Of a stretch of DNA of 64,000 bases, positions 17,283 through 19,424 are shown in pieces (within the stretch, counting starts at the first letter, position 1; the number at the start of each line of letters is the position of its first letter). A program made the position numbers and the translations under genes. This stretch comes from Hyphococcus flavus (GTDB lineage Bacteria; Pseudomonadota; Alphaproteobacteria; Caulobacterales; Parvularculaceae): NCBI RefSeq assembly GCF_028748065.1, contig NZ_CP118166.1, forward strand, positions 1,317,501-1,381,500, written 5' to 3'. Below the pieces are notes generated by a model. The model was not told where the DNA came from. It was given only the letters and a program-made list of their open reading frames with translations, and did no database searches.

Positions 17283-18566
17283 ATGACGTCGGAAGTCGTG
17301 TTGATGAACCGCCAGGCGGTGGCGATGGCGGCGGATAGCGCCGTCACCATATCCGGCGACCGGTATCTGAAAACCTATCAGTCCGTGGATAAGCTGTTTC
17401 CGCTGGTGGAAAACCAGCCGGTCGGCGTGATGATTTATAACAACGCCGAAATCATGTCGACGCCGTGGGAAACGGTGATTTCGCTTTATCGCGAACAGGC
17501 GCGCGGGCGCCCGCTCGACACGGTAGCGGCTTACGCCGAAGACTTCATGGAGTTTATCTCCGGCAATCCGGATCTCTTTCCGGCAGAACATCAGGATACG
17601 GAATTTTTCAAGGTCGTTGCGGTGGTCTATACCGTGCTGGCCGAAGAATTCGACTATCAGGTGCAAAAGTTTTCGCAGAGCCATTCGGGCGGCGTGCGCG
17701 ATCATATCTCCTCGATCTTTGAATTCGTAGTTGGTCAGCTTCATACAGATTACCAACGCTGCCCCGATGACAGCCCGCGCGGCGACCTGCCGTGTTTTCC
17801 AAAAGGCATGGCCGAACAGGTGCGCCGCCGTTATGGCGGGGAAATCGATCAGTTGATGCAAAGCCTGTTGGGCTCGTTGCGTCAGGAATATCCGGGCCTC
17901 TCGATCAGCGAGGAAACGCAGGCGCGCCTGCGTGAGATTGCTGTTTTTGCTGTCGTCAAGGATGCGTTCTTTGAGCACTACACCGGCGTTGTATTCGCGG
18001 GCTTCGGGGCCAAGGAAAAATTCCCGTCCATGCGCTCTTATCTTACATCGAGCGTTATTCTTGGCATTTTGAAGCGCAAGCGCGACCGTCAGGCCGATAT
18101 CGGCGCTGACACGGGGCCCGTGTTCCAGCCTTTCGCGCAGGACCGGATGATCCGCACGTTTCTCACGGGTATGGATCAGTATTTGCGGATGTTCATCTAT
18201 TCGGAGACGTTGAAGCTCTCCATGGGGCTTGTTTCAGATATTGTTTCACGCACGCCGAACCTGAATGACACCCAGAAGAATGCGATTTTCCGTGACTACA
18301 GTCAGAATAATCTCGGGCATGCGCTGAACGAATTTTTCCGCTCAGTTGATAATTATCAGTACGCGGTGCATACGCGGCCGATTTTGCGGGCGATCAATTC
18401 CCTGCCAAGGAAAGAGCTGGGCGAAACGGCGGCGTCACTGATCAAGCTGAACTCCTTCCAGCAAAAGGTGATGCATTCGGTCGAAACGGTCGGCGGGCCG
18501 ATCGACGTCGCCGTGATCACGCGCAATGGCGGTCTTGAGTGGACCCGCGAAAAACCGGAGCTTTAG
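17283..18566 (+). CDS. Proteasome/HslV-like Ntn-hydrolase-fold protein, undescribed type
   Basis: 427 residues from the ATG at 17283. Without Met the chain starts T-S-E-V-V and reaches AMAADSAVT with Asp at position 17, exactly as HslV T1...D17. A lysine follows at 36 in SVDKLFPL, where proteasome subunits have Lys33 before the next strand. A long helical insertion (about residues 65-230) precedes a second strand-like segment (TGVVFAGFGAKEKFPS). More helices follow, then a final strand pair (GPIDVAVITRNGGLEW, about 405-420). I infer an Ntn-hydrolase sandwich interrupted by helices. It is nearly twice HslV or Anbu length. It is coupled to the next gene, whose ATG is three bases after its stop. 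Confidence 0.6.
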   Translation: MTSEVVLMNRQAVAMAADSAVTISGDRYLKTYQSVDKLFPLVENQPVGVMIYNNAEIMSTPWETVISLYREQARGRPLDTVAAYAEDFMEFISGNPDLFPAEHQDTEFFKVVAVVYTVLAEEFDYQVQKFSQSHSGGVRDHISSIFEFVVGQLHTDYQRCPDDSPRGDLPCFPKGMAEQVRRRYGGEIDQLMQSLLGSLRQEYPGLSISEETQARLREIAVFAVVKDAFFEHYTGVVFAGFGAKEKFPSMRSYLTSSVILGILKRKRDRQADIGADTGPVFQPFAQDRMIRTFLTGMDQYLRMFIYSETLKLSMGLVSDIVSRTPNLNDTQKNAIFRDYSQNNLGHALNEFFRSVDNYQYAVHTRPILRAINSLPRKELGETAASLIKLNSFQQKVMHSVETVGGPIDVAVITRNGGLEWTREKPEL

Positions 18567-18569
18567 GGC

Positions 18570-19013
18570 ATGAGTGAACGTCTAAAACAGATCTGGGCCG
18601 GATTTTCGTCAGAGACGACACGCAAGCTCACCGGGCGCGGTGTCGATAACATCCTCGTGCCGCACCGAACCGACTATGCGGAAACCGACGAGGGTTTCCT
18701 GCCGGAGAACTATAATGCGCCGGCGGAATCGGCGTTCTCGGCGCTGCGTGAGAATTTAAAGACAAAAGAAAAAATGTTCGGCGGCAAAAAGAAAAAAGCC
18801 GGCGACACACGCTCATCCCTGCCGTCTGAGGCGGAGGACTTCACCGCCGCCACGGCTTTTTCATCGTCAAGCGACGATCTTATTCGCGGACTTCGCGCCA
18901 CTGCTATGCGGGTCGAGCGCCCGGATATAGATTACGGCGCTTTTGTCGCCTCGCCCGAGGGCAAGGCCCAGTTCAAGAAGCACAAAAAGAAAAAACGCTT
19001 CGGCCTGTTTTAA
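18570..19013 (+). CDS. Unknown hydrophilic protein coupled to the Ntn-hydrolase-like gene
   Basis: 147 residues, no signal peptide or membrane span. An N-terminal helical segment (ERLKQIWAGFSSETTRKLTG) leads to a motif-like stretch ILVPHRTDYAETDEGFLP. Ser/Ala-rich linkers and Lys clusters (GGKKKKAG; KKHKKKKRFGLF) follow, the last at the very C-terminus. It starts three bases after the preceding stop with AGGG upstream, so it is probably translated from the same message. I do not recognise the family; it could be a partner, substrate or regulator of the upstream protein. Confidence 0.75.
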   Translation: MSERLKQIWAGFSSETTRKLTGRGVDNILVPHRTDYAETDEGFLPENYNAPAESAFSALRENLKTKEKMFGGKKKKAGDTRSSLPSEAEDFTAATAFSSSSDDLIRGLRATAMRVERPDIDYGAFVASPEGKAQFKKHKKKKRFGLF

Positions 19014-19100: not shown

Positions 19101-19424
19101 ATGATTGTCACAACAACTGACGGTGTGCCCGGACGCGAGGTAAGCAATAGTGTTGGCGTCGTCGCCGGCGAGGCGATTCTCGGCGTTAATATTTTCCGCG
19201 ATTTGTTCGCGGGCATTCGCGACATTATTGGCGGGCGTTCCGGCGGCTATCAAAAGGCGCTGCGTGAGGCGCGCGATCACGCCATGGCGGATATGGAAGC
19301 CGAAGCCGCAGCGCTGGGCGCGGACGCCGTTATCGGCGTTGATATCGATTATGAAGCAGTCGACACGCAAAAGGGCGCGATGCTGCTCGTTTCTTGCAAT
19401 GGTACGGCGGTGAAGCTGCGCTAA
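19101..19424 (+). CDS. YbjQ-family (heavy-metal-binding-like) protein
   Basis: 107-residue protein of the YbjQ/UPF0145 family, a small pentameric dodecin-like fold of unknown role. Signatures are the N-terminal [24 protein letters not shown], the middle [26 protein letters not shown] and the C-terminal [21 protein letters not shown] lies seven to eight bases before the ATG. It sits 88 bases after the Lys-rich gene and could be cotranscribed with it. A link to the Ntn-like protein is only positional. Confidence 0.87.

Follow-up and report, generated by a model that had tools for sequence, protein, structure and literature searches.

The window analysed here, a stretch of 64,000 nucleotides of Hyphococcus flavus DNA, encodes a proteasome-like Ntn hydrolase that lacks the C-terminal tail of its family and is strictly linked to a small gene directly downstream, the product of which ends in a conserved C-terminal peptide. 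As far as our tools and the literature consulted show, such a tail-less hydrolase with a strictly linked, C-terminally conserved partner is unreported. We read the pair, at what we take to be even chances, as a cytosolic threonine-type Ntn hydrolase with a dedicated adaptor or activator that would dock by its C-terminus. The sequence-only reading of the hydrolase had been silent both on the partner gene, which starts 3 nt further downstream, and on the published families of proteasome homologs with multiple insertions (PMI).

The hydrolase gene (17283..18566, + strand) runs from an ATG start to a TAG stop and encodes 427 aa without a propeptide, at exactly the coordinates proposed earlier. An AGGGG-like ribosome site upstream and the Met-Thr start kept in relatives both support this start. 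The N-terminus reads M-T-S-E-V, with D18-S19 following in AMAADSAVT and Lys37 in SVDKLF. Thr2 (codon 17286..17288, +), which would become the N-terminal nucleophile Thr1 after Met removal, is Thr in 208 and Ser in 1 of the 209 fetched relatives with an intact start. In the 107-member alignment used for modelling, the same column holds T in 106 cases and S in one. Asp18 (17334..17336, +), corresponding to Asp17 of proteasome/HslV, Ser19 and Lys37 (17391..17393, +), the equivalent of Lys33, are each invariant in this alignment (107/107). The T1 and D17 that the sequence-only reading had likened to those of HslV thus hold across the homologues, the nucleophile being always Thr or Ser. The lysine of SVDKLF, assigned earlier to the Lys33 strand, is invariant as well, but its mature position is 36, three residues past Lys33 of proteasome/HslV. 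The length, put at about twice that of HslV or Anbu, turned out as a ratio of ~2.4 to the HslV of this genome (181 aa) and of less than 2 to Anbu.

The T1...D17-S18...Lys pattern is far above chance, and Ser as the sole substitute for the nucleophile is what an Ntn hydrolase would be expected to tolerate. A natural Thr-to-Ser change at the N-terminal nucleophile is found in a Bacteroidetes copy (L109:390-1679). Computation shows a conserved putative triad of the T1/D17/K33 type at the free N-terminus of the hydrolase, and from this pattern we infer catalytic activity. Some proteasome alpha-type subunits are catalytically dead, and the hydrolase could likewise be a dead scaffold with a proteasome fold. 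However, the triad (T/S, D, K) is retained in all relatives across bacteria and archaea, and we consider a dead scaffold most improbable.

The AlphaFold2 (AF2) model of the hydrolase, based on an alignment of 107 diverse sequences, reached a pLDDT of 93.2 and a pTM of 0.90. When it was compared with the PDB by Foldseek, the top matches were all 20S proteasome beta subunits (prob 1.00, E 3e-5 to 8e-4), and Anbu ranked lower with a TM of 0.55 over target. Computation hence shows, at the level of the model, a predicted four-layer proteasome-beta fold. In this fold, strands S1 to S4 are predicted at residues 4-8, 12-18, 21-32 and 47-53, helices H1 to H4 at 62-73, 81-93, 288-295 and 376-396, and S5-S8 at 234-284, including the strand 'GVVFAGF' at 234-240. 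The last predicted strands lie at 407-413 ('IDVAVIT') and 417-420, and the chain ends after them. Between H2 and S5, at the 'pore-loop' site, the model places a first helical insertion (~residues 101-225; 17583..17957, +) with helices at 101-133, 138-158, 176-202 and 210-225 and a pLDDT mostly >90. A second one (~residues 299-373; 18177..18401, +) is predicted between H3 and H4, with helices at 299-322 and 329-373; residues 21-53 (S3-S4) contain no inserted helix in the model. The extra length of the hydrolase is therefore due to two helical insertions, and strand pairs separated by helical insertions, as had been suggested from the sequence, are borne out by the AF2 secondary structure. With Thr2 conserved and the predicted fold matching proteasome beta and Anbu, the original interpretation as a proteasome/HslV-like Ntn hydrolase is supported.

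Searches by sequence gave a different yield from those by structure. The hydrolase matched no entry of Pfam, including PF00227 (Proteasome), of NCBIfam or of PADLOC, and a single-sequence search of the PDB gave no match. A profile search against the PDB returned only weak proteasome-beta matches at both ends (E >0.1), which we take as a hint only. Because the sequence identity to proteasome beta is ~10%, sequence searches alone miss this kinship. The hydrolase itself is out of the reach of the PF00227 model; two shorter relatives found by the family profile do match PF00227 and thus provide a sequence bridge from the hydrolase family to the proteasome. Shorter relatives with frames of 303 and 273 aa were seen in L048/L053 (genome G136) and G508. 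L048 keeps the N-terminus and a KRKHYF-type tail, lacks the long insertions and matches no Pfam family. These shorter relatives may connect PMI-4 with the compact proteasome homologs.

Fuchs, Alva and Lupas described 22 new proteasome-like families in 2021, including PMI-1 to PMI-6 (PMC8665760). Among them, PMI-4 (Proteasome homolog with Multiple Insertions 4; representative HDY66466.1) is abundant and occurs in many phyla, Euryarchaeota and phages; its function was called unknown, and no genomic context suggesting a specific function was reported (PMC8665760). We assigned the hydrolase to PMI-4 because its architecture and spread, as well as its size, agree with the published description (PMC8665760). 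Both share a proteasome-beta core with Thr at the N-terminus; long insertions lie after H1/H2 and between H3/H4, and there is none between S3 and S4, where an insertion is the mark of PMI-5/6 and connectase. The relatives of the hydrolase likewise occur in many bacterial phyla, in Euryarchaeota and in phages, a distribution that sets PMI-4 apart from PMI-3. As a protein family, the hydrolase is therefore already described and not new. What differs is its alphaproteobacterial branch: the C-terminal tail carried by most fetched relatives is missing there, and a dedicated partner gene follows the hydrolase. Our literature search for a later PMI function or phage link found nothing.

Comparison with the better-known homologs places the hydrolase apart from each of them. 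HslV shares the T1, D17 and Lys triad, but it has ~180 aa (175-180), no insertions and a dodecameric assembly, whereas the hydrolase has 427 aa with insertions. Anbu has a proteasome-like fold by Foldseek and, like the hydrolase, no propeptide; it differs in having no long insertions and a C-terminal coiled-coil helix H5, whereas the hydrolase has two such insertions and ends after the last strand. Connectase is also a proteasome-like homolog with a helical insertion, but this insertion lies between S3 and S4 and H1/H2 are missing, while the hydrolase has H1/H2 and nothing at that site. Moreover, the genome carries a normal HslV (181 aa) and HslU 7-8 kb before the window; hence the hydrolase is no replacement for HslVU.

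Relatives of the hydrolase are encoded in 406 genome stretches and 158 viral stretches, as well as on plasmids and in named phages, archaea being included. PHROG 5990, a phage family without assigned function, matches the hydrolase over its full length (E 3e-76). Phage relatives (L134-L213, L026-L030) occupy moron positions beside cI-like repressors or between the antiterminator Q and the holin, and in streptococcal satellite phages the relative is the last gene. Such positions would fit a domesticated anti-phage or superinfection-exclusion hydrolase of prophage origin. However, the gene is present in 57 of the 60 sampled genomes of its own family, with identities of 66-93% within genus and family, and the only copies grouped with its branch in the tree come from other alphaproteobacterial chromosomes (support 91-99), those of phages lying elsewhere. 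In its own family the hydrolase is thus an ordinary, near-universal and vertically inherited core gene, unlike the mobile copies elsewhere. Since the clade consists of alphaproteobacterial chromosomes only and the hydrolase gave no PADLOC match, we judge a prophage origin of this kind to be very unlikely. A reading as a defence system was also tried and rejected, as no PADLOC match was obtained and the chromosomal neighbours are random housekeeping genes.

No conserved operon partner or shared neighbour was found around the chromosomal relatives across the whole family, and the absence of a shared neighbour outside the alphaproteobacterial clade agrees with what Fuchs et al. had reported. On several rhizobial plasmids, a proteasome homolog is located near a bacterial ubiquitin-like system: in L032 (NZ_AP023255), L301 (NZ_CP149876), L302 (NZ_CP006879) and L303 (CP090551), a PMI relative lies ~1-3 kb from multiubiquitin and ThiF (E1-like) genes.

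The partner gene of H. flavus (18570..19013, +; 147 aa) begins 3 nt after the hydrolase stop and in frame with it. Its product matched no family in Pfam, NCBIfam, PADLOC or PHROG. It has an N-terminal helix, RLKQIWxGF, and its middle is predicted to be mostly of low confidence or disordered. The next ORF (19101-19424, +) encodes YbjQ_1 (PF01906), a putative heavy-metal-binding protein, and a YbjQ_1-like ORF is also found downstream in several family members.

The occurrence of the partner was surveyed by profile search over 299 genomes of the order. The profile of the own-family partner detected 58 genomes, all of the own family; one further match, within a frame of 1042 aa, is spurious. The partner adjoins the tail-less hydrolase in 56/56 copies, and the other 2 of the 58 matches, in G547 and G677, are fragments located where a contig ends. 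The partner is absent from G515, which has no hydrolase, and from G525, where the sole hydrolase is of a different, tailed kind. A second family within this order has another small protein, of 145-216 aa, encoded after the hydrolase. The genomes with this second partner are the very 18 that carry the corresponding type of hydrolase, and the two genes are adjacent in all of them (18/18); two further matches of the second profile, near E 5e-4, are spurious. The hydrolase thus has a small gene strictly linked to it on the downstream side, and no linked ATPase. If the hydrolase acted alone, as a general or oxidative-damage peptidase next to an unrelated gene kept by operon structure, it would make sense that the family has no conserved neighbour outside the clade. 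Yet such a lone peptidase has little probability in view of the complete pairing in two families, of a partner that almost never occurs without the hydrolase, and of a motif common to otherwise unalignable proteins.

This motif is the ending of the partner. In H. flavus it is the peptide KKKKRFGLF-COOH (18984..19010, +), and over the two alphaproteobacterial families it can be written as [KR]2-4-F-(L)-G-[I/L]-F-COOH. When the profiles of the two partners are compared, the final nine residues are the only stretch that aligns (KKKKRFGLF vs RRRKFLGLF; hhalign E 6e-5). Among the aligned own-family partners, 33 of 34 keep the ending, and their middle is poorly conserved. Throughout all fetched DNA, 48 of 8006 distinct long-ORF tails carry the motif and all 48 belong to partners beside a hydrolase, a count that measures specificity and is no independent test, since the regular expression was written after the tails had been seen. 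In the H. flavus genome, the partner is the only real ORF with this ending, the one other match being in a 16-residue frame. Since hardly anything but these nine residues is common to the two families, they point to a docking tail.

The tails of the hydrolases themselves show a corresponding pattern. A conserved KRKHYFxxELNxxFFxNY tail is found at the end of most family members (109/130 by a pattern that overlooks a few genuine tails), and the copies truly without it are alphaproteobacterial. G510, of the own family, carries both forms: its tail-less copy adjoins a partner, and its tailed second copy (L285) has none. Likewise, in Parvularcula dongshanensis (G525; L095/L286), also of the own family, a divergent tailed hydrolase is the only copy and there is no partner. 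These observations suggest that the partner may perform in trans the task of the cis-encoded tail. There are exceptions, namely L016 and L283, which are tail-less without a partner, and the f3 copies, which have small overlapping ORFs without the exact motif ending. Relatives outside the Alphaproteobacteria showed no conserved partner.

More distant alphaproteobacterial copies (L044, L045, L037, L246, L034, L035, L039) also have small proteins directly downstream, with basic or amphipathic tails such as KKGFLRRLFGAR, KRRRGLFRRMLGLR and EPSWLKRLFSRK. Homology between these unalignable proteins and the own-family partners was considered and found to be unsupported; the distant proteins are thus likened by the character of their tails only. 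The amphipathic-looking tails recall a MinD-type membrane-targeting helix. The basic-aromatic C-terminus of the partner might accordingly serve to anchor the partner, and with it the hydrolase, at the inner membrane. The amphipathic-helix statistic is individually weak, with 0.3-6% of background tails matching, and the helical moment of the own partner tail is low (0.34). Besides, an anchor would need no invariant last Phe and would be expected to recur, but the partner is the only real ORF in the genome to end this way. We therefore consider a membrane anchor quite unlikely.

The precedent for a docking tail comes from HslVU. The C-terminal residues of HslU dock between HslV subunits and activate HslV, and octa- and dodecapeptides of the HslU tail suffice for this activation (PMC4106860, PMC6429459). 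Similar to HslU, the partner has a conserved C-terminus with aromatic and aliphatic residues at the free carboxy-terminus. However, its sequence is not identical to that of HslU, which ends in ADLSKYIL in this genome, or to HbYX, and HslU is an AAA+ ATPase whereas the partner is no ATPase.

In the adaptor or activator model that we prefer, the hydrolase would be a cytosolic threonine-type Ntn amidohydrolase of the proteasome-like superfamily. Methionine aminopeptidase would expose Thr1, which would then attack an amide bond in its substrate, a protein or a peptide. Both helical insertions may cap or gate the active site and prevent formation of a classical double-ring barrel. The downstream partner would serve as the dedicated adaptor or activator: its disordered body would carry or tether the client, and its extreme C-terminal peptide would dock on the hydrolase as the C-terminus of HslU does on HslV, or as HbYX tails do on 20S proteasomes. 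The peptide would thereby stand in for the C-terminal tail (KRKHYFxxELN...) lost in this branch of the hydrolase. An AF2 model of the fused chain, with the TAG read through and the partner half without alignment, left the partner disordered (pLDDT ~30-55), as is to be expected from such an input, and gave no confident contact. More tentatively, and with distinctly less than even confidence, we suggest that the motif might be a new class of ATP-independent docking/activation tag, by which the disordered partner would deliver or license substrates and replace the cis tail in trans.

Strict gene pairing, a disordered body and a C-terminus that alone is common to both partner types would also be expected if the partner were the dedicated substrate, its C-terminal peptide being recognised and the partner then cleaved or transpeptidated by the hydrolase. 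Indeed, connectase, another proteasome homolog, ligates proteins and has a specific recognition sequence (PMC8665760). On the other hand, it is the exact carboxy-terminus that is conserved, with nothing recognisable past it to be released, and the partner bodies of f1 and f5 each retain other conserved blocks; a substrate role therefore seems rather unlikely.

The 22 proteasome-like families of 2021 came without function or informative gene context. The tail-less branch now adds a partner in strict linkage, whose short C-terminal peptide can be synthesised and is a first testable handle on the role of PMI-4-type enzymes. What activates, or is cut by, a non-canonical proteasome homolog thus becomes a question open to bench test. 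If the docking is true, activation by a C-terminal tail would have evolved outside AAA+ and 11S-type activators.
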